The notes under the pieces are model-generated. The model ran no database searches. It saw nothing but the letters and a program-made list of their open reading frames with translations, and was not told where the DNA came from. A stretch of 46,898 nt of DNA from a virus. Below are positions 3,331 through 41,128 of the stretch, in pieces. Numbering within the stretch: the first letter of the stretch is position 1; each line of letters starts with the position of its first letter. The stretch covers positions 1-46,898 of the IMG/VR virus record IMGVR_UViG_3300032236_000515; one strand, given 5' to 3'. The translations under genes and the position numbers were made by a program.

Positions 3331-5186
3331 GACTTCTTAGGAGCCTTTCCTAGAACACCCGTAGATGCCCAGTCAGAAGTTTGGTTCTGGTACTCAGGCA
3401 AACGGTTGAATGTGATAGACAGGTTAGTGAATACAGGAATCATATCTTTAGTAAAGATAGTGTGGCTGATATCAAATGAGTCAATAAACCCTAGGTAACG
3501 CAGGTTACTTCCGAGGTGCAGTTCTACAGGATAGGCACCTAGATAACCAATATCTGCGGTTAGACCGCCACGCAAAAGACTCTTAAGGCGGTAGCCAATC
3601 AAAGTCTGTAGTAGGAACTCTACGTCATACATAGTCCCCATCTCTTTGATTTTTCTGACCTGCCCCGTGGCAGTAATGTCAGGGTCCACCTTGCCATCAG
3701 GTACCCAAGGGTAAATCTCCTTAGGGTCAATCTTTCCGTCTAGAATACCCTGAGCGTATTTCATGTCGTTCATGCGATTAAGGAGCAACTGGAAACTAAT
3801 ACTGCTACTGGTGACAGAGGCTCCAATAAGGGCAACAGGGTCAGTTCCAGACGCAGCAAGACCAGGGTCAACCGATGGAGACCCCGCATAGCGCATCTCA
3901 ATGGTGCTTGGGTTATACAGGAACTGGAAACCATAACGATGCTTGTTATAGTTATTAACACCCATTACGTCAACTGGGTTGAACCACTTAGAGCCAGTAG
4001 CCAGGTTTCCAATCTTAATGAAACTCTGAATCATTCCCTTAGAGTTTCCACCCTTAGCCTTAGCCCACAAGTCTGCTGCCTCAGCAACCTTGGCAGGTCT
4101 GTTGCCCTCACCAACAAACAGCACCTCATCAGCATACGACTTCCAAGTTGCTGTGGTAGATATCTCATTCATTGCCCGATTGATACCAGCGATAGAAGTT
4201 GTATCTACCCCAGAGTCTGCTCTATGTGATACTACGCCAGTGTGAGTAAAGTAAGAATCCTTCACACCAGGCATGTTGTAGATGAGTTTATTATCAGCAG
4301 TGCCAGTCTTAGGAGTGTTATTGTTGTTGTTATTGTTGTTGTTATTGTTGTTGTTATTGTTGTTATTGTTATTAACAGTCAGATTTGGTTTATCAAACGG
4401 ATTCTTATCTTTGATAAACTTACTGCTCTTCAAATCCTTCAGAAGTTTAGTCTGCGCTGCCTGTAGTGCAGTCTTCTTCTTCTGAAGATTAGCCTGAGCG
4501 TTTAGATAGAACTGGTAGCACTTATACCAGTATTGGACATCATCATCGCCACGGTTAAGCCCCAGCGCAGCGCCTGGGTTGTACCCGCTTGAAAGCGTGT
4601 CGGAGTACCCAGGAATGTTCTTTAGAATATCTGGCGCAAGGATTTGCAGAGACCCCCCCTGCCGCTGAGGGGTAGTAGGGGCGTTAACTAGTTTTGCCCA
4701 GTCTACGTTTCCCCAAGCCTTTCTACCCTGACCAGATGCTTGGTGAGAATACATGATTCCTTTACCACTAGGGTAGAGCCATACAGTATTTGTCCCAGTC
4801 TCATCAAACTGCAACTCAAGGGTGCTAATGGCGGTCATATCTGCTGTACGAAGACCGTTTAGTTTTGTAGAAACATTCTCAAAGTAATGCGACTCATTCA
4901 AAGAATCGTGAGGGTAATCCTTGAATCGTGCCGTCTTGTTCTCAGCATTAGCGCCAGCAGCAGTCTTAAACTTGACGTTCCACTTATTGTTATAGAGTTT
5001 AATCTCATACACGGCAGATGGAATAAGCCGTCCTTTAAACGAAGTCTGCACAGTATCAGCCGCCTGAACCGCTAGTGCGGCATCGTTGTACTGCTTAAGC
5101 GCAATATCAAACGCACTATAGTCAATGTGACTGCTGCGCTTATTTTGTGGAATAGGATTAGGTACTGTCCATTGCTTAGTAGCCAT
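3327..5186 (-). CDS. Large tail/baseplate structural protein with poly-asparagine linker
   Basis: A 619-residue protein directly downstream of the tape measure gene. It has two parts separated by 19 consecutive Asn residues (about residues 272-290): an N-terminal part with an alpha-helical 'YQFYLNAQANLQKKKTALQA' stretch, and a C-terminal part with 'KHRYGFQFLYNPSTIEMRY' and 'SFQLLLNRMNDMKYA'. The latter resembles tube-initiator/hub-associated proteins of contractile tails that contain an F-x-F-x-Y-N-P motif. The precise role is not established; position and the C-terminal pattern support a tail-tip function. The start ATG touches the stop of the tape measure gene. Confidence 0.6.
   Translation of the reverse strand: MATKQWTVPNPIPQNKRSSHIDYSAFDIALKQYNDAALAVQAADTVQTSFKGRLIPSAVYEIKLYNNKWNVKFKTAAGANAENKTARFKDYPHDSLNESHYFENVSTKLNGLRTADMTAISTLELQFDETGTNTVWLYPSGKGIMYSHQASGQGRKAWGNVDWAKLVNAPTTPQRQGGSLQILAPDILKNIPGYSDTLSSGYNPGAALGLNRGDDDVQYWYKCYQFYLNAQANLQKKKTALQAAQTKLLKDLKSSKFIKDKNPFDKPNLTVNNNNNNNNNNNNNNNNNNNTPKTGTADNKLIYNMPGVKDSYFTHTGVVSHRADSGVDTTSIAGINRAMNEISTTATWKSYADEVLFVGEGNRPAKVAEAADLWAKAKGGNSKGMIQSFIKIGNLATGSKWFNPVDVMGVNNYNKHRYGFQFLYNPSTIEMRYAGSPSVDPGLAASGTDPVALIGASVTSSSISFQLLLNRMNDMKYAQGILDGKIDPKEIYPWVPDGKVDPDITATGQVRKIKEMGTMYDVEFLLQTLIGYRLKSLLRGGLTADIGYLGAYPVELHLGSNLRYLGFIDSFDISHTIFTKDMIPVFTNLSITFNRLPEYQNQTSDWASTGVLGKAPKKS
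4317..4373 (-). repeat. Trinucleotide (AAT/AAC) repeat encoding 19 Asn
   Basis: Nineteen in-frame AAC/AAT codons in a regular mix (mostly AAT followed by three AAC) form a low-complexity linker in the tail protein. Length changes by whole codons would leave the frame intact, so this can vary without breaking the gene. Confidence 0.9.
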
Positions 5187-7726
5187 TAGAGCACTCCCAT
5201 GCTAGAAACTAGTTTGTCTTCTTCAAGGTAACCCCTGATTAACTTGGCGAATCGTCTTGCTTCTGCTTCCGATGCCTGAGAAATGTTTAAGTTGATGTTA
5301 AAGGTATTGCTACTACCACCTGAACGAGCAGGAGCATCGCCACCCTGTCCACCACCTACTGATGCGCCAGCAGACGTGGTACTCATACCATGACCAATAA
5401 CTGAACTGGTGCTGGATGAGGACATAGTTAAGTTGGAGGTAGTGGCAGCCCCTTTATATGAGCCAGGGATAGTAATGCCTGCGATGTTTTGAGCACCAAG
5501 ACTGTAGCCTAGTTGAGCGGCTCCTGCGGCTCCTGCAGCCCCCGAACGAGAGCCAGAGCCAGTGGCAAGACCCACTCCGCTACCTTCAGTCATAAGAGCA
5601 ACATTCGCTGGAGTACCGCCACCTGTACCAGCAGACGAGGCATAGTTTCCGCCCAATGCGGATGAAGGGTCAACCTTGTTGCCATTCTTGCGAAGTTCAA
5701 AGTGAAGGTGAGGACCAGTAGAGTAACCAGTGTTACCAGACAAACCAATAGTCTGACCCTGAGTTACTGTGGCTCCCTTGCTTACACCAATAGAAGACAA
5801 GTGACCATACCAAGTGCTATAGCCACCACCGTGGTCGATTTCTACATAGAGACCATAACTACGGTCGCTAGTACCCATAGTGTTTACGGCTGTACCACCA
5901 GCGTCAATGACTGTTCCTGCTGCAGCAGCAAGAACTGGAGTGCCGATACCTACACCCCAGTCAATGGCGTAGTGACCATTAGGGTGCAGTTTATCTGTCT
6001 GACCGTAGTAAGTAGTGACCTTGGCGTTTCCTACAGGGTGGATAAGTTTGATTCCACCAGTAGTGTCACTGGTGCGACTTCCAGCCACTCGTGACTGCCC
6101 ACCACCGCTACCGAACATTCCACCTACTTGACCACCAAGCCAAGAGCCAGCGTAGCCACCAATGAACGTTCCCATACCGAAAGTAAACGGGTCTAGCAAA
6201 GTTCCTAAAGCAGCGCCAGCCATTCCACCGACAGTGCTTCCCAAGTCGGAACTAAACCGCTTAGTTCCCCAACCTTGACCATTCATGGCGTCATTTGCCA
6301 AGTTTAATCCACCGATGATTCCAGCGGCTGCAGCGCCTCCAGCCATCTTTCCTACACGACCGACACCGCTACGACCAGGAGCACCTCCTGCTGCAGGAGT
6401 TACCTTACCGCCAGCACGTGGTCCACCAGGTCTGCCCGCACCTTTACCTACGCCTCCGCCAGAACCACCGCCGCCCATGATTCCACGCATTGTTCTACCC
6501 AGTAGGGCGTTCTGCACGAGCGTACCGCCGATGCCGCCGAGGCCGCCCAATGCGCTGCCAATACCCCCCAATAGACCCCCAGTAGCAGGGTCATTCCCCG
6601 CAAGGCTGACACCAGCGTTAGCCTGCGCCATCATGTTGCCCATAGGAGATTTAAGAAAGTTTTGCATTGCAGTATTAAACTGCTCAATAACACCCGCAGC
6701 CTTTTGCATACCAGTAATGTAAGCATCAGATGCTGCCTGCATAGTGCCAGTCTGAGAACCTGTTGCATCGTAGAGCGCCTGCTGCGGGTTGGTTCCCGCC
6801 TTGTTCTCAGCAATAAGTCTGCCCATCAACTTCTTGTTGCCCAGGTCCATGTTCTTACCACTGGTTCGGTCAAGAATGTATTGATAGGCTAGGCGCTGCT
6901 GAGTTGGGTCCAAACCAGAACCAGCAAGGTCAGCACCAAGGTTTCCGCCCTGGTACGAGTTTTGCAATGCTTCTCTAGAGATTTTGCGACCACCAGTAAT
7001 GCGCTGGTCAAGTTGAGCAAAAATCTCAGTAGGGCTGAGACGACGACCTGTGCGTGGGTCTGTAGTCCAGATACCGAAGTTACGCATCAGGTTGCCTGAA
7101 GTTTTTCCTTGGGTTAATCCTCCAAGGGCTGAGGCAGCATCAGCGTTAGAAATGTTTAGATACTTAGCCGCATTAGCGGTAGAGGTAGCCAGGTTAGCAA
7201 ACTGTCCACGGTTAATACCTGTAGCAGCAGGGTTAACACCCATGCTAGTAAGGATGCCAGCAGTTACAGCGTCCTGACCTAGACCGCTAATGCCACCTCG
7301 CATAGCGCCAAAGGTAGCAGTAGCAAGACTATTACGGCTCATACCCGCAATAGTTCCAGCGTCGTAATAAGCCGTGCTGCGAGCCGTGGTCATTGCTACG
7401 TCAGGCATACCCGCAAAAGCACCGCCAGCAAGACCAAACAACGCCTGGATGCCGCCCTGCGCTACAGCGCCCATCGTGTTCATGCGGCGGTTCATGGAAA
7501 GCATCTGAGGAAGGTTTCCGAAAGAGGAACCCATGATGTTTGAGCCAGAAGAGCCTAGACGAAGTTGACCAGTCCCACCAAAGTTACTTCCATTAGGGGA
7601 ACTATTGGAGTCATGTATAGCCGCACTAAGGTCGTTAAACGAGGCAGTGATGCTTTTGACAACGGCATCCATCTTCTCCATTGTGGAGAGAAGACCCGTC
7701 ATGTCCATATCGAGACCATCGCTCAT
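5186..7726 (-). CDS. Tail tape measure protein with M23 peptidase domain
   Basis: An 846-residue protein directly after the tail chaperone and frameshift extension, the canonical position for the tape measure that sets tail length. It is Gly/Ala-rich, with hydrophobic segments around residues 375-530. Around residues 565-690 lies an M23 (LytM-like) metallopeptidase domain: 'HPNGHYAID' supplies the H-x-x-x-D zinc ligands, and 'TGPHLHFEL' gives the H-x-H motif. Tape measure-linked peptidases help the tail cross peptidoglycan during DNA entry. The C-terminus 'NTFNINLNISQASEAEARRF' is typical of tape measure tails. The start ATG overlaps the TAA of the extension frame by one base. Confidence 0.88.
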   Translation of the reverse strand: MSDGLDMDMTGLLSTMEKMDAVVKSITASFNDLSAAIHDSNSSPNGSNFGGTGQLRLGSSGSNIMGSSFGNLPQMLSMNRRMNTMGAVAQGGIQALFGLAGGAFAGMPDVAMTTARSTAYYDAGTIAGMSRNSLATATFGAMRGGISGLGQDAVTAGILTSMGVNPAATGINRGQFANLATSTANAAKYLNISNADAASALGGLTQGKTSGNLMRNFGIWTTDPRTGRRLSPTEIFAQLDQRITGGRKISREALQNSYQGGNLGADLAGSGLDPTQQRLAYQYILDRTSGKNMDLGNKKLMGRLIAENKAGTNPQQALYDATGSQTGTMQAASDAYITGMQKAAGVIEQFNTAMQNFLKSPMGNMMAQANAGVSLAGNDPATGGLLGGIGSALGGLGGIGGTLVQNALLGRTMRGIMGGGGSGGGVGKGAGRPGGPRAGGKVTPAAGGAPGRSGVGRVGKMAGGAAAAGIIGGLNLANDAMNGQGWGTKRFSSDLGSTVGGMAGAALGTLLDPFTFGMGTFIGGYAGSWLGGQVGGMFGSGGGQSRVAGSRTSDTTGGIKLIHPVGNAKVTTYYGQTDKLHPNGHYAIDWGVGIGTPVLAAAAGTVIDAGGTAVNTMGTSDRSYGLYVEIDHGGGYSTWYGHLSSIGVSKGATVTQGQTIGLSGNTGYSTGPHLHFELRKNGNKVDPSSALGGNYASSAGTGGGTPANVALMTEGSGVGLATGSGSRSGAAGAAGAAQLGYSLGAQNIAGITIPGSYKGAATTSNLTMSSSSTSSVIGHGMSTTSAGASVGGGQGGDAPARSGGSSNTFNINLNISQASEAEARRFAKLIRGYLEEDKLVSSMGVL

Positions 7727-14336: not shown

Positions 14337-15392
14337 CTATGATGCCCTATAGAACCCCAGATTTCGGGCTAATCTCTCGTCATGTGGTTCGAGTTCTAGT
14401 GCCTTAGTGCCGTGAGTTAAAGCAGTGTCTTTATCCCCCAGATAGTGGGCACTGATAGCAGCAAGGTCGTGAGGCAATGCTCCCCAAGCAAACTCTTCAC
14501 AGAGATAATCCAATGGCTTCTCGGCAATCTCTAAAGCCTGCATGGAGTGCTTGTGGCAGTTCGCCCAGTCTGCTGACTGGTAATACCATTGGGCTAGTTC
14601 CACTAGGGGCTCACGCCTACCAGGTGCTTCACGCACAGCATTATTCAACCAAACAGGAGTCTGCTCTGGTTCACACTTCGCAAGGTATCGCATAGAGGCG
14701 GCACGCTCTGGAGCCCACACAGCCCTAGGCAACTTCAAGTGCCTCTTAAACTCTGCCGCCGCCTTATCGTACATTCCATTGAAGAAGTACTCTCGGGCTA
14801 GATAATAGGCATTACGGTCATCGTGCGGGTCTTCTTGCACAGCCACTTCAAGTAACGGGAAGTATTGACCACGGCTTTTGGTATTGTCTGGGTGGTGGTG
14901 AATCTCAAGTCCAACCCACCCCTGAATCTCCGATATACGGTCAGCGACTAGAACCTCATGTACTGGGTGCTTCCAGCGGTAGCCATGTCTGGCGTGAATC
15001 TTATCCCCGCCATATTGCAGCCCTGGCTCAGTCTCTTCGGCGTTTTTCCATGACCAAGTGTATTGATAACGGGGGCGAGTCCATCCCTGCGCCGCAGCCC
15101 GTTCCAACTCATCTCGCCAACCTGGGAGCAGAACCTCGTCCATGTCGAGGGCGATACAGTAATCAAAGTCTTTGGGGATAGCGGCTAAAGAAGCATTGCG
15201 AGCGTCATCAAAACGCCAAGGGCTGATAGCAACATCCACAACCTTGACGCCTTTTGCTAAGGCTAGTTCCTTGGTCCTGTCTGTAGAGCCAGTGTCAGCG
15301 ATAACTAAAAGGTCTGCATCTTTAGCAGAATCTGCCCATCTATCAACAAACTGTTCCTCATTCAGGGCGATTGTATAGACCGCTACCTTCAT
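14337..15392 (-). CDS. Family 2 glycosyltransferase with C-terminal TPR-like repeats
   Basis: A 351-residue protein. The N-terminal GT-A domain starts 'KVAVYTIALNEEQFVDRW', with 'VIADTGSTDRT' for nucleotide-sugar binding and a D-x-D metal motif 'ALDMDE' at residues 81-86. From about residue 190 onwards, helical pairs ('YLAREYFFNGMYDKAAAEFK', 'ALEIAEKPLDYL', 'HGTKALELEPHDE') look like TPR repeats. It lies between the fibre genes and the neck genes in the same direction, so the acceptor could be a virion fibre. Substrate and sugar are not shown. Confidence 0.8.
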   Translation of the reverse strand: MKVAVYTIALNEEQFVDRWADSAKDADLLVIADTGSTDRTKELALAKGVKVVDVAISPWRFDDARNASLAAIPKDFDYCIALDMDEVLLPGWRDELERAAAQGWTRPRYQYTWSWKNAEETEPGLQYGGDKIHARHGYRWKHPVHEVLVADRISEIQGWVGLEIHHHPDNTKSRGQYFPLLEVAVQEDPHDDRNAYYLAREYFFNGMYDKAAAEFKRHLKLPRAVWAPERAASMRYLAKCEPEQTPVWLNNAVREAPGRREPLVELAQWYYQSADWANCHKHSMQALEIAEKPLDYLCEEFAWGALPHDLAAISAHYLGDKDTALTHGTKALELEPHDERLARNLGFYRAS

Positions 15393-15416: not shown

Positions 15417-17078
<1,662 letters not shown>

Positions 17079-17128: not shown

Positions 17129-21289
<4,161 letters not shown>

Positions 21290-35159: not shown

Positions 35160-35668
35160 TATGGGAGTTTAGTTGGGTCCGTGTAGTAAGTTACAGGAGC
35201 AACTGGAGCAGCAGGAGTTGGAGTTACCTCTGCGGCTGGTTCGGCAAGTTCTGCTTCTTCAGCAGCAAGTTCTGCATCGTGAGCAGCGAGGTCATCAGGG
35301 TGAATCTCTGGCTCACCGCCTGGGTGCTCCGAACCATCGAACAGGTCACCAAGGTCACCGAAGTCAAAGTCAGCAAATGCGTCCTCTGGAGTACCAGCGA
35401 CCTTTACTGCCTCTGCGACGTCCTTGTTGTCTGCTGCCTGCTTGGCAACGGCAGCACGAAAGCCTTTTTCGATGTCAGCGTCCGAAATGTCTGCGTCCCA
35501 TGCCAACTGCACACCGAAGTAGATGAGGATTGACGAGAAGACGGTTAGCACACCAGTGATGCCACCCATGAGCCAGCCCACAGTCGGTGCACCAGCAGCC
35601 ATACCTGGGATAAAGGCGAATAGGATAACACCAACGGAACGCTTAAGCATGTTCTTTAGTTTCTGCAT
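35159..35668 (-). CDS. Holin-like membrane protein with acidic C-terminus
   Basis: A 169-residue protein directly after the endolysin gene (overlap one base). A basic N-terminus precedes two probable membrane helices ('VGVILFAFIPGMAAGAPTVG' and 'GITGVLTVFSSILIYFGVQL'), then a long acidic Ala/Glu/Pro tail. Topology and position suit a holin or membrane partner of lysis. Holins are diverse and cannot be confirmed by sequence alone. Confidence 0.55.
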   Translation of the reverse strand: MQKLKNMLKRSVGVILFAFIPGMAAGAPTVGWLMGGITGVLTVFSSILIYFGVQLAWDADISDADIEKGFRAAVAKQAADNKDVAEAVKVAGTPEDAFADFDFGDLGDLFDGSEHPGGEPEIHPDDLAAHDAELAAEEAELAEPAAEVTPTPAAPVAPVTYYTDPTKLP

Positions 35669-36177
35669 TACTGTGCTCCTCCTGCAGCGGCTTTACGAGC
35701 CTTGGCTGCGGCGATATCTGCCTTGCGCTTTGCAAGGGCTTTGTCAGCGGCTGCCTTCTGGTCAGCGAGCACCTTCACTAGGAAAGCCTCTGCATCGTAG
35801 ACCTTACCGCCAAATACGCCATCCTTGTTTGATGCAAGGGTGAGGTGTAGGTGAACGCCCGACGAGGCGCTACCAGTTGTACCTGCGGTACCAATCTGGT
35901 CGCCAGACTTGACGTGAGTGCCAACCTTTAGCGGGCTTGGCTTGTCCATGTGGCAGTAACCGAAGAAACGGGTACCAACCTGGAGGACAACGACATTTCC
36001 CAGGATTCCTGAGAACTGGTTAACAACGATTACGCCATCGTTAACTGCGAAATATGGGTGACCTGCTCCAAAGCCGTTGTAGTCGGTGCCTCGGTGACCA
36101 TTTGGGTGCCACGAGTCAACTACACCGAACTTAGGACCATAGTTGAAGTGACCCTTGAGAGGGCGAGTCCAAGCCAT
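35668..36177 (-). CDS. Endolysin, M23 peptidase
   Basis: A 169-residue protein. H28 and D32 in 'HPNGHRGTDY' and H109/H111 in 'GVHLHLTL' are the zinc ligands and catalytic His of an M23 metallopeptidase; H76 lies between. M23 enzymes cut peptide cross-bridges in peptidoglycan. Residues 130-169 are an Ala/Lys-rich helix ('ADKALAKRKADIAAAKARKA') that could bind the negatively charged wall or membrane. There is no signal peptide, so release needs a holin. Confidence 0.82.
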   Translation of the reverse strand: MAWTRPLKGHFNYGPKFGVVDSWHPNGHRGTDYNGFGAGHPYFAVNDGVIVVNQFSGILGNVVVLQVGTRFFGYCHMDKPSPLKVGTHVKSGDQIGTAGTTGSASSGVHLHLTLASNKDGVFGGKVYDAEAFLVKVLADQKAAADKALAKRKADIAAAKARKAAAGGAQ

Positions 36178-36215: not shown

Positions 36216-36380
36216 CTATTCGTCACGATTCCGCAGTGGAAACGTGATTACCCACAGCGCAAGCGAACCTATGATGCACCAGCCAACTACAGTCTTTGCT
36301 GAGCCTTCGAGCACAATCCATGCCACGAACATACCTAGCAAAGTCCATACCTGGTTTAGTAGGTCATTTAGGAACTTCAT
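36216..36380 (-). CDS. Small two-helix membrane protein, holin candidate
   Basis: A 54-residue product, MKFLNDLLNQVWTLLGMFVA followed by a second hydrophobic helix 'TVVGWCIIGSLALWVITFPL' and a charged end (NRDE). It ends 38 bases before the endolysin and its ATG overlaps the previous stop by four bases. Size, topology and position suit a class II holin. Confidence 0.6.
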   Translation of the reverse strand: MKFLNDLLNQVWTLLGMFVAWIVLEGSAKTVVGWCIIGSLALWVITFPLRNRDE

Positions 36381-36601
36381 TTCTCTTTCCTTCTTGTAGA
36401 TGAGCCAGAACCAGAACCTCCACCAGCACTTCTAGCAGCCGAAGCGGCAGCCATGCCAGCAGCCTGCGTCGCAACTTGGGTCACGATAATGGCAGAGATG
36501 ACTACCTTTTGAGCACGCTTACGAACTGCTTTAGGTAGGTCTGCACCAATGTTTCCCAGAGCGTTGAACGCATCTGCTAGCCCCTTGAACGCTGGTCCCA
36601 A
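36377..36601 (-). CDS. Small protein with central hydrophobic segment (TTG start)
   Basis: A 74-codon frame starting at a TTG, the only plausible start after an in-frame stop far upstream; the initiating site is therefore uncertain. It contains 'ALGNIGADLPKAVRKRAQKV' and a hydrophobic Ala-rich stretch 'VISAIIVTQVATQAAGMAAA', then a basic Ser/Gly tail. Between the secreted protein and lysis genes; may be another membrane factor. Confidence 0.45.
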   Translation of the reverse strand: MGPAFKGLADAFNALGNIGADLPKAVRKRAQKVVISAIIVTQVATQAAGMAAASAARSAGGGSGSGSSTRRKEK

Positions 36602-36654
36602 TCCTGGTATAGCAAAGATAGCGGGGGTATCCTGCTTTAAATCAGGTTGGGTTA

Positions 36655-38112
36655 TTATTTTGGGACTGGAGTGAACTTAGGCTTAGGCGCTACCTTGGCG
36701 GGAGGTGCTGGCTTTGCTGTCGGTTTCTTACTGACTTTTGCAGGAGACGTTGGCTTTGGAATCGCCGCCAATGCTGCTTTAGCCTGAACCAACTGAGTCT
36801 CGATACCACTTACAACTCCTGCCTGATTATTGATAGCGTCAAATGTCGCCTTGTACTGCGTCTGCAAAGTAAGCAGGGCGGCATCCTTGATAGCCTTATC
36901 ATCACTTGCTGTTTGCCAAGTGGCATCTGCCACAGACAAAATGTCGGTCTGTGATGATAGCGTTGCCTGTTTAGCACTTAACGTATCTAGTGCTTGGTTA
37001 TACGTAAGCGTTGCTTGGTCGTAGGCATTGCCTGCGTCGATGTAGGTCTGCAAGGCAGTCTCTTCAGCGGCTACTGCGGCGTTGTAGGTGGCAGTCTTGG
37101 CGTCCAAGACAACCTTGAGTGCGGGGTCCTTAGTGGTCACTGCTACGACTTGCTGAGTAAAGAACGATGCAGGAGCAACAGTCCACTGACCAGAGTTCAA
37201 CGGCTGGTAGTACAAAGTAGAACAAGCACCGCCAGTCCACTCGTAGAACCAAGCGTCAACGGCGTAGGACTGACCGCCAGTGAATGAGAACAGACCTGCC
37301 GAGTTAGCGCCACAGCCCTTGAGCGACCAGTCGTTTACGATTGGCTGACCAGCAATGGTCATGTAGAAGCCGTCATCGGCTTGGTTCATGAAGTAGACCT
37401 TGGTGGTGGTTGGATATGTAATGTAGCCGTGGTAGTGCAACATTACATAGTCAGAGCCACAGCCCATAATGTCGCCGCCACCCCAGTTAGCCTGGATATT
37501 AGTAACAGTAGTCGTCTTACACTTGGTATAGGCGTTATCAGACTTCTGAGGTGGATTACCGTTTCTATTGATGCCCGTGTAGACATCTACAGTTAGACCT
37601 GGGGTAGAAGGTCCACCCACAGTTACCGAACTGTTGTCGTATGCAGTCTGAGCCAGGTTCATTTGCACACCAGCAGTAGCACTGGCATCCTGCTTTGCCT
37701 GGTAATCAGCATAGGCGCTGTCTACGGCATCAGAGGCTACGCCTACAGCAGTAATAGCGTCATTGACAGCCTGCTCTGCAGCCTGCTCATCAGCGTAGGC
37801 AGCGTCGTAGTTAGCCTGCTTAGTAACGTCATCAGCGGCTGCAGTGTCCAGAGCGTCCTTAGCCTGGGTAGCAGCAGTCTGGGCAGCGTTAATAAGGTCT
37901 GCCTGACCGTTAGAGTTGTTCTGCAAATCAGTCAACTGCTGCTGAGCGGCAGCCAACTTAGTCTGCAAATCGCTGATTAGTGCCTGCTGGGCAGCCACCT
38001 GCTTGTTGTAGTCAGAAGTGCTTTGAGCAAATGCTGGAGAGGAAATAAGTAGCGGAGTGGTAAGTAGAGTGAGGGTTCCGAATAGTGCTGCGTATTTACG
38101 CAGTTTATTCAT
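36655..38112 (-). CDS. Secreted coiled-coil protein with PA14-like domain
   Basis: A 485-residue protein. A Sec signal peptide (basic N-terminus, hydrophobic core, cleavage after A29 in 'SPAFA') is followed by an Ala/Gln/Asp-rich coiled coil to about residue 165. A beta domain at about 170-310 with 'VYFMNQADDGFYMTIAGQPI' and 'YAVDAWFYEW' fits PA14 (carbohydrate-binding beta-barrel; D-D-G metal loop). A second coiled coil and a Lys/Pro-rich tail ('AKVSKKPTAKPAPPAKVAPK') follow. Signal peptides are rare on phage proteins; it may act outside the cell membrane at lysis, or bind cell-wall glycans. Confidence 0.72.
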   Translation of the reverse strand: MNKLRKYAALFGTLTLLTTPLLISSPAFAQSTSDYNKQVAAQQALISDLQTKLAAAQQQLTDLQNNSNGQADLINAAQTAATQAKDALDTAAADDVTKQANYDAAYADEQAAEQAVNDAITAVGVASDAVDSAYADYQAKQDASATAGVQMNLAQTAYDNSSVTVGGPSTPGLTVDVYTGINRNGNPPQKSDNAYTKCKTTTVTNIQANWGGGDIMGCGSDYVMLHYHGYITYPTTTKVYFMNQADDGFYMTIAGQPIVNDWSLKGCGANSAGLFSFTGGQSYAVDAWFYEWTGGACSTLYYQPLNSGQWTVAPASFFTQQVVAVTTKDPALKVVLDAKTATYNAAVAAEETALQTYIDAGNAYDQATLTYNQALDTLSAKQATLSSQTDILSVADATWQTASDDKAIKDAALLTLQTQYKATFDAINNQAGVVSGIETQLVQAKAALAAIPKPTSPAKVSKKPTAKPAPPAKVAPKPKFTPVPK

Positions 38113-38390
38113 TACTTATCTTTCTTATCAGTAGATTTACCATCAGAATCGACACCCTTGATGGCTAGGGTTTGGCGGAAGGCGGCGTTGATTTCATCTT
38201 CAGTCAACTTGCCGTCTTCAAGGAAAGCGATAGCCAAAAGTTCGATGACCTTGGCAACAGCCAACAGACCACCAACACAGGCAGAAATGTATGGGTTAAC
38301 GCCAACGAGCGCACCAGCACCAATAGTGCCGAGCACGGAGGCTACGAAGGTCGCAAAGATGCGAAGAAGTACGTTTTTAAAGAGTTTCAT
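38112..38390 (-). CDS. Membrane protein, holin-like
   Basis: A 92-residue protein with two hydrophobic helices ('IFATFVASVLGTIGAGALVG' and 'SACVGGLLAVAKVIELLAIA') and a charged C-terminus, the layout of small phage holins. Its stop overlaps the start of the secreted PA14 protein by one base, so the two are coupled. Function is inferred. Confidence 0.6.
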   Translation of the reverse strand: MKLFKNVLLRIFATFVASVLGTIGAGALVGVNPYISACVGGLLAVAKVIELLAIAFLEDGKLTEDEINAAFRQTLAIKGVDSDGKSTDKKDK

Positions 38391-40229: not shown

Positions 40230-40252
40230 GATGCTCCTTATTGTGTGAGTAG

Positions 40253-40323
40253 AGCCCCGAGCAGGAATCGAACCCGCCTCATCTGATTACAAAACAGAAG
40301 TTTTACCAATAAACTATCAGGGC
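40253..40323 (-). tRNA. tRNA-Thr (anticodon UGU)
   Basis: The 71-base minus-strand sequence folds as a cloverleaf: acceptor stem GCCCTGA/TCGGGGC (one G-U), D stem GTTT/AAAC with a GG-containing loop, anticodon stem TCTGT/TCAGA around TTTGTAA, and T arm GCGGG-TTCGAAT-CCTGC. The anticodon at position 34-36 is TGT, reading ACA. No CCA is encoded. The anticodon stem has a U-U at its base pair next to the loop. Confidence 0.87.
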
Positions 40324-40453: not shown

Positions 40454-40987
40454 TTAGTTGATGTCGATAATCTTCGGCTTCTTTTCTTCAGGAAGTTCCT
40501 TGTTGAACTGGATGGTGAGCATACCGTTTTCCAATACGGCGTTGGTGATGTGCCAATAGTCAGCGACAGCCAACTCCAACTTGAAATCACGGGTAGCAAT
40601 GCCCTGATAGAGTACGTTGCCACGCTGCTTGTCTTCCTGGCGACCCTCAATGGTGATGATAGAGTCCTGCAGCGAAATAGTGAGTTCTTCTTTGGTAAAG
40701 CCAGCAACCGCTACGTTCAGCAGGTTAACGTCCCCATCTTCCAATGCCACAATGTCGTATGGAGGATAGGAGGGCTTGTTGTTGGTGACTGCTCGCAACT
40801 GCTCAAGAAGAGGGGACCAGCCAATAGAAAGGCGGTCTAGGCGAGGGAAAAGGTCAGCGATAGTAATGACCTTGGCGGGAGTTGGGGGAGTCTTTTGTCC
40901 CCAGGGCTCGTGAGGGCTAATGTGCTGCTTTGCACGTTCTTTGTACTGATTTGTACGGTCTTTGTCGAACTGTTCGTATAGTTCCAT
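40454..40987 (-). CDS. Hsp20 / alpha-crystallin small heat shock protein
   Basis: The start at 40987 has an AAGGAG ribosome binding site; an upstream ATG 102 bases back is unlikely. The 177-residue protein has the alpha-crystallin domain from about residue 70: 'YDIVALEDGDVNLLNVAVAG' followed by 'FTKEELTISLQDSIITIEGR', then 'IATRDFKLELAVADYW' and 'VLENGMLTIQFNKELPEEKK' and a C-terminal I-x-I-type end 'KIIDIN'. It is an ATP-independent chaperone, known from T4-like cyanophages. It is preceded by a consensus promoter and a hairpin over its ribosome binding site. Confidence 0.88.
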   Translation of the reverse strand: MELYEQFDKDRTNQYKERAKQHISPHEPWGQKTPPTPAKVITIADLFPRLDRLSIGWSPLLEQLRAVTNNKPSYPPYDIVALEDGDVNLLNVAVAGFTKEELTISLQDSIITIEGRQEDKQRGNVLYQGIATRDFKLELAVADYWHITNAVLENGMLTIQFNKELPEEKKPKIIDIN

Positions 40988-41009
40988 TGTTGTCTCCTTA
41001 GACGACAAC
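40985..41009 (-). promoter_or_regulatory. Candidate RNA thermometer hairpin at Hsp20 RBS
   Basis: On the minus strand GTTGTC (41009-41004) and GACAAC (40994-40989) pair perfectly, enclosing TCTAAGGA. The AAGGAG ribosome binding site is partly inside the loop and partly in the stem, with the ATG two bases beyond. Melting of a short stem at heat could expose the site. Structure is visible; temperature control is inferred. Confidence 0.45.
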
Positions 41010-41128
41010 TGTGCTTTAGGTAGAGAATCCCGTGCCAGGGTACATACCTGCCCAGCGGTCTTGCGGTTCTCTTTTACTGCCCGTAGCACAGTATTTATTT
41101 ATGACGCCCGATTGGCACGTCTAAGAAG

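Follow-up and report, generated by a model that had tools for sequence, protein, structure and literature searches.

The window analyzed here comprises 46,898 nucleotides of a freshwater phage (all of IMG/VR record IMGVR_UViG_3300032236_000515). On its minus strand, an open reading frame (ORF) at 36655–38112, which is backed by homologues, encodes a predicted secreted PA14 protein of 485 amino acids. The predicted signal peptide, MNKLRKYAALFGTLTLLTTPLLISSPAFA, occupies residues 1–29 (38026–38112) and ends in A-F-A; the A-x-A end was conserved in the alignment of relatives, and an N-terminal hydrophobic signal was present in every complete relative. In an AF2 model built on 15 homologues, an N-terminal stalk helix of 128 residues (32–159; 37636–38019) leads into a PA14 domain at about residues 163–327 (37132–37626), which is also delimited by homologue profiles and structure search. 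A C-terminal stalk helix of 120 residues follows (330–449; 36766–37125), its length co-varying with that of the N-terminal helix. The sequence ends in a Lys/Pro-rich tail (36658–36765), and residues 456–485 were disordered in the model.

We next consider the identity of the PA14 domain. The window protein scored 17.9 bits against Pfam PA14, for which the curated cut-off is 24 bits. PA14 Pfam matches were found in 14 of the 15 aligned homologues (best 4.9e-7), and six distant relatives (L069, L071, L093, L095, L096, and L017) were above the cut-off at 24.2–43.4 bits, some of them at 37–43. When modelled alone by AF2, the domain gave a pLDDT of 93.4 and a pTM of 0.87. The best Foldseek matches were the PA14 domains of RsgI3, MpAFP, an RTX adhesin, Flo5, and Epa, with TM-scores of 0.66–0.73 to the first three; the closest solved folds were thus PA14 domains, mostly sugar-binding ones. 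A profile search of PDB sequences returned RsgI3 at 2e-27, and BFVD already includes PA14 proteins from uncultured phages, with the top match at 44% identity. The loop D246-D247-G248 (37369–37377, minus strand) lies where PA14 lectins have the DcisD calcium/sugar motif, which holds the sugar-binding calcium (PMC8092209), and DDG was invariant in all 32 aligned PA14 domains. The residue-level comparison with MpPA14, whose second sugar loop is Gln156–Asp159, covers the Asp-Asp pair. These models and profiles support a PA14 beta-sandwich fold in the window protein. The preliminary description had proposed a secreted PA14-like protein with an A-F-A cleavage site, a D-D-G loop, and the order coiled coil, PA14 barrel, coiled coil, and Lys/Pro tail. 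All of this is supported: the ORF is real, the signal peptide end is kept in relatives as A-x-A, the model reproduces the order as helix, beta domain, helix, and disordered tail, fold prediction returned PA14, and the loop is invariant.

The two helices appear to form a stalk. In distant relatives, the stretches flanking PA14 span roughly 30 to 400 residues and are matched in length (362/370, 231/213, 66/58, and 50/33); the arm lengths correlated with a Spearman rho of 0.97 over 22 forms, a value that comes from a crude rule and from related, hence not independent, sequences. Since the arms are equal and co-vary, they imply an antiparallel hairpin stalk with the PA14 domain predicted at its tip. 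For the window protein, the computed stalk length is ~18 nm (120 residues at 1.5 Å). In short-armed relatives, the coiled coil is replaced by FN3 together with Ala- or Pro-rich stretches, and all variants keep the signal peptide, PA14, a spacer, and a membrane end. Judged by these predicted parts, the layout that is kept is that of a surface adhesin.

The 3' end of the PA14 ORF reads GTC CCA AAA TAA. The sequence C_CCA_AAA (36658–36664, minus strand), directly 5' of the zero-frame TAA (36657–36655), is a canonical X_XXY_YYZ slippery site. After a −1 slip, reading would continue as CCC AAA ATA ATA ACC..., with the product ending its zero-frame part and entering the new frame as ...PKIITQPDLKQDTPAIFAIPGLGPAFKGLADAFNALGNIGADLPKAVRKRAQKVVISAIIVTQVATQAAGMAAASAARSAGGGSGSGSSTRRKEK. 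The −1 frame extension (36377–36658, minus strand; 93 amino acids, IITQPDLK...STRRKEK, and a stop) holds a GAD motif, a predicted transmembrane (TM) helix, and an Arg/Lys tail, and it is in frame in relatives; the predicted fusion product of the two frames is 578 amino acids long. The protein need not end at 36655, where the preliminary description had placed its end. A heptamer was found at the end of the PA14 ORF in all 47 distinct viral contigs (29 CCCAAAA, 17 TTTAAAA, and 1 AAAAAAA), in frame and 0–3 nt 5' of the stop codon. The background for CCCAAAA or TTTAAAA elsewhere in the same genes was 7 per 21,385 codons. Furthermore, we scanned 2.9 million viral contigs of IMG/VR with a DNA-only pattern that allowed any pyrimidine triplet. 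Of 42 places found, 39 were followed by a −1 frame anchor, 1 was a contig-end copy of a known member, and the other two look like chance matches. All 40 family members carried CCC or TTT, and mixed triplets were found in none. Pro (CCA) to Leu (TTA) swaps at the heptamer were accompanied by a change of the wobble base in the preceding codon, a paired change that, on comparison of the sequences, is not demanded by protein selection. CCCAAAA fits the V_VV.A_AA.R motif, and UUUAAAA falls outside the most efficient −1 motifs of Escherichia coli (PMC4066793), a ranking that may not be that of the host. The PA14 domain tree gave no decision on a single origin of frameshifting.

A shift by one frame is also the typical appearance of a sequencing error, and a decaying pseudogene could look alike. 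With the same site in 47 distinct contigs and a −1 frame under protein selection, we give this explanation practically no weight. A second alternative is that ribosomes re-initiate past the PA14 stop, without any frameshift, and make the anchor as a protein of its own. Start-like TTG, GTG, or CTG codons do lie ~47–53 nt past the stop in most loci, and the ORF list of the window assigns a TTG start to 36377–36601. However, this ORF (36601 to 36377) has no proper start and forms the 3' part of a more extended −1 frame, whose overlap with the PA14 ORF is 10–85 nt across loci; nearly all candidate starts of the −1 ORF are codons other than ATG, with no convincing Shine-Dalgarno sequence at the proper distance. 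In the stretch between the slip site and the start-like codon (about +47), the −1 frame gave a pN of 0.23 and a pS of 0.52 (pN/pS 0.45), whereas the other two frames gave 0.31/0.30 and 0.30/0.20 (ratios 1.0 and 1.5). Evolution is thus protein-like in the −1 frame only, and before the start-like codons, so that this stretch is very probably under purifying selection and translated, which re-initiation does not explain. The heptamer is, moreover, conserved at every base, and relatives encode a single fused protein. We consider re-initiation improbable, with only a slight chance of being correct. A mechanical ORF list hides the membrane anchor as a short orphan ORF.

Downstream of the heptamer, after a 6-nt spacer, lies a predicted stem-loop (36597–36651, minus strand) with the 5' arm CCCAACCTG (36651–36643) and the 3' arm CAGGATTGGG (36606–36597). 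RNAalifold on the MAFFT alignment returned a 4-pair core only, because the 5' arm is one base out of register between groups, and an alignment-free helix search took its place. By this search, 41 of 46 loci had a stem starting 5–6 nt 3' of the heptamer. The region in the window folded at −18.5 kcal/mol (z −2.64), and the mean z over the 46 loci was −1.9 for the minimum free energy and −2.5 for the two arms. The arms changed together between loci (CCCCCAA/TTGGGGG, ACCCAAC/GTTGGGT, CCCAGC/GCTGGG, and CCGAA/TTCGG), and the Gly codon of the 3' arm was GGG in 35 of 44 cases against a background of 40 in 1273. When the loci were recoded synonymously with the −1 protein kept, fewer than 5% of trials equalled the stem in 59% of loci. 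The ungapped stem of the window was not unusual under this recoding (p 0.35), and the window helix has a bulge; nor was the stem unusual in L058, L062, L066, and L067, the last two of which lack the standard stem. The position of the stem-loop fits that of a stimulatory RNA structure, and we regard it as a candidate stimulator of the −1 slip.

The same anchor occurs without a frame change in other members of the family. The predicted TM helix of the window anchor (36449–36505, minus strand) was placed by its Kyte-Doolittle peak, which at 1.66 makes it moderately hydrophobic. Of the more distant relatives (L068–L093 and L015), 23 had complete ends, and 19 of these had an in-frame anchor at the C-terminal end of the PA14 protein, laid out as GAD or GSD, a charged helix, a TM segment, and an Arg/Lys tail. 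In the other four, also of the fused type (L078 and L083–L085), the tail is Arg-rich and the GAD motif is absent.

We also examined the genes on both sides. Directly downstream, a 54-amino-acid protein with two predicted TM helices (36216–36380, minus strand) starts in overlap with the −1 frame stop. This gene followed in all 65 loci (43/43 of the frameshift type and 22/22 of the fused type), and in 41 of the 43 frameshift-type loci its start overlapped or touched the −1 stop (−4, −1, or +2 nt). Its hydropathy peaks at residues 14 and 31, and its size and two TM helices fit a class II holin; no PHROG or Pfam holin match, no family match, and no tblastn match among known phages was obtained. 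In the window, AAGGA lies just upstream of its start, so the 54-amino-acid protein may start on its own there; the idea that it is made wholly by frameshifted ribosomes was dropped. Upstream, a holin-like protein of 92 amino acids, also with two predicted TM helices (38112–38390, minus strand), abuts the PA14 gene, the TAA of the former and the ATG of the latter having one base in common. It matches phrog_26427, whose label "nuclease" is probably wrong for a two-helix membrane protein. Among named phages, the holin-like protein was found in Actinomycetia phage DSL-LC01 only. PADLOC returned nothing for the PA14, 54-amino-acid, and holin-like proteins, and neither Csg genes nor curlin repeats were found by Pfam and PHROGs in the PA14 module and the neighbours examined. 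The probable endolysin, an M23 peptidase (Pfam 1e-15), is encoded at 35668–36177 on the minus strand. A second M23 domain occurs in the window, in the probable tape-measure protein at 5186–7726.

This arrangement could suggest a lysis accessory, in which the PA14 stalk, once tethered, would join both small membrane proteins in helping the M23 endolysin break the envelope in a spanin-like or holin-regulating manner, instead of serving as an external lectin. The PA14 gene lies between two holin-like membrane proteins with the M23 gene following, and M23 was within 3 kb in 19 of 22 frameshift-type loci. By contrast, this proximity was seen in only 7 of 15 fused-type loci, and the holin-like gene is movable: in the frameshift-type loci with enough flank, it was directly upstream in 6 of 22 and downstream in 11 of 22. 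The preliminary description had placed the gene in a lysis region and coupled it to the two-helix protein upstream. The first point thus stands only loosely; the coupling is present in the window and is not general, the constant partners of the PA14 gene being the −1 frame anchor and the 54-amino-acid membrane protein. A spanin lipobox is also missing, since the signal ends in A-F-A-Q with no Cys, and no lipobox was found in relatives. The fold, moreover, is of the adhesin/lectin type, with the same domain on curlin repeats in another phage, and the outward layout stays constant although the stalk changes freely in type (coiled coil, or FN3 with Ala-rich or Pro-rich stretches). A lysis function is therefore a minority reading that we judge rather unlikely.

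The window as a whole is a 46.9-kb myovirus record with tail sheath, portal, terminase, and capsid genes (PHROGs). Its capsid protein shares 60–63% identity with the capsid proteins of Streptomyces phages, LuckySocke and BRock among them, and megablast with 25 kb of the window matched no known phage. Among the cellular PA14 domains found, the nearest were in Microbacteriaceae/Micrococcales MAGs with small assemblies (0.9–1.4 Mb). An actinobacterial host is likely from these sequence affinities. Other genes include a beta-1,4-glycosyltransferase among the tail genes (14337–15392; phrog_13126, 4e-113), which could modify glycans met by PA14 or the tail fibres, an Hsp20-like small heat-shock protein (40454–41089), and a tRNA-Thr (tgt; 40252–40323). 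Promoter and terminator scans gave counts not above those of shuffles. The PA14 protein might itself be a virion component, such as a receptor-binding fibre or decoration, since PA14/GLEYA-like folds occur in some phage structural proteins and the weaker BFVD matches include minor tail proteins. However, the hydrophobic N-terminal signal of all complete relatives and the TM anchor argue against a place in the virion, and tail fibres are already encoded at 17129–21277 and 15417–17069. We regard a virion role as very unlikely.

Taken together, we think it probable that one phage gene yields a surface protein in free and tethered forms through programmed −1 frameshifting, a judgement that covers the two forms and not their biological role. 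Ribosomes that do not slip at C_CCA_AAA would stop at once and release the 485-amino-acid protein, which would be exported and then released or loosely held through its Lys/Pro tail. Those that slip by −1, aided by the stem-loop ~6 nt downstream, would read 93 more codons; the 578-amino-acid protein would end in the membrane anchor and be tethered to the cell. In both forms, the two long helices would pair antiparallel into the ~18-nm stalk with PA14 at its tip, long enough to cross a thin Gram-positive wall, and the 54-amino-acid membrane protein would act as the constant partner of the module. Frameshifting would set the ratio of the two forms, and this ratio may matter, for example if a minor tethering subunit sits among free ones. 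Expression would be late, and the PA14 domain may bind glycans of the infected cell or of cells nearby, promoting adhesion or masking receptors from other phages. Adhesion or receptor masking has, in our estimate, close to but at most an even chance of being the role; the preliminary description had already raised surface modification against reinfection, and surface binding or exclusion of reinfection is plausible. Roles other than adhesion or masking, lysis help, and a part in the virion take the remaining share.

More broadly, many phages of (probably) freshwater Actinobacteria may split an exported lectin into free and tethered forms by a −1 frameshift, while pelagiphages put the homologous PA14 on curlin repeats, giving two routes to phage-made sticky or masked surfaces; on the sequences compared, we consider this generalization about evenly poised. 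PA14 domains and −1 frameshifting are each known. Their combination, in which a frameshift adds a membrane anchor to an exported phage protein, appears to be new, as no report of it was found in the open-access literature. Phage frameshifts that extend the C terminus are known from tail assembly chaperones and from the coat proteins of T3, T7, Lactobacillus A2, and Listeria PSA/A118/A500 (PMC5009743, PMC10885494). There, too, slippage near the gene end gives an extended product; here, however, the product would be an exported surface protein and the extension a membrane anchor, with no part in the virion or tail assembly. Since virion and tail-assembly genes supply most of the known phage frameshifts, a switch between free and tethered lectin would, if true, be a new use. 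The logic resembles that of Ebola virus glycoprotein editing, in which one gene and slippage yield soluble and transmembrane forms (PMC5009743), although the slippage there is transcriptional, in an animal virus and without homology, whereas here it would be ribosomal and in a phage.

The PA14 lectins of bacterial and yeast adhesins (MpPA14 of MpAFP, Flo5, and Epa1) share the beta-sandwich and the DD motif and likewise sit at the tip of a long surface protein (PMC8092209). Unlike them, the window domain is phage-encoded, on a predicted coiled-coil hairpin, and putatively anchored by frameshift; by sequence and model it is a candidate lectin. Among the cellular relatives found, those closest to the phage domain, in L094–L096 of small-genome Microbacteriaceae/Micrococcales, belong to PA14-He_PIG surface proteins with PA14 straight after the signal peptide. 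Those proteins differ in having 1400–1617 amino acids, Ig-like repeats, and multi-TM ends, and the frameshift site and GAD anchor were not seen there. DSL-LC01 gave no PA14 match; its hypothetical protein WJZ48438 (L116, 9698–12532, minus strand) has a signal peptide, an FN3 segment resembling the one in the fused family, a long Thr/Pro stalk, a TM end, and a different head.

Pelagiphage HTVC008M was the only named phage in the collection that matched the window PA14 protein. Its secreted protein AGE60352 (L017, 5746–7071) carries a homologous PA14 domain at 40% identity and consists of a signal peptide, PA14, and curlin repeats (5e-8), inside a CsgF-CsgG-curlin-FecR-cyclase cluster. PA14 is thus followed there by curlin repeats beside CsgG/CsgF, whereas in the window it is combined with a coiled coil and a TM anchor. 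Given the stalked or secreted proteins of HTVC008M and DSL-LC01, phage-made stalked surface proteins may therefore be a broader theme. For the curli operons of pelagiphages, adhesion, "sibling capture," and lysis control have been discussed (PMC9599517, PMC7029224, PMC9004378), and the term PA14 is absent from the main texts of these three papers. The frameshift reading opens the role of phage-made surface proteins in dispersed aquatic bacteria to testing. It also connects the pelagiphage curli operons, as yet unexplained, with a possible general strategy, the display of PA14.
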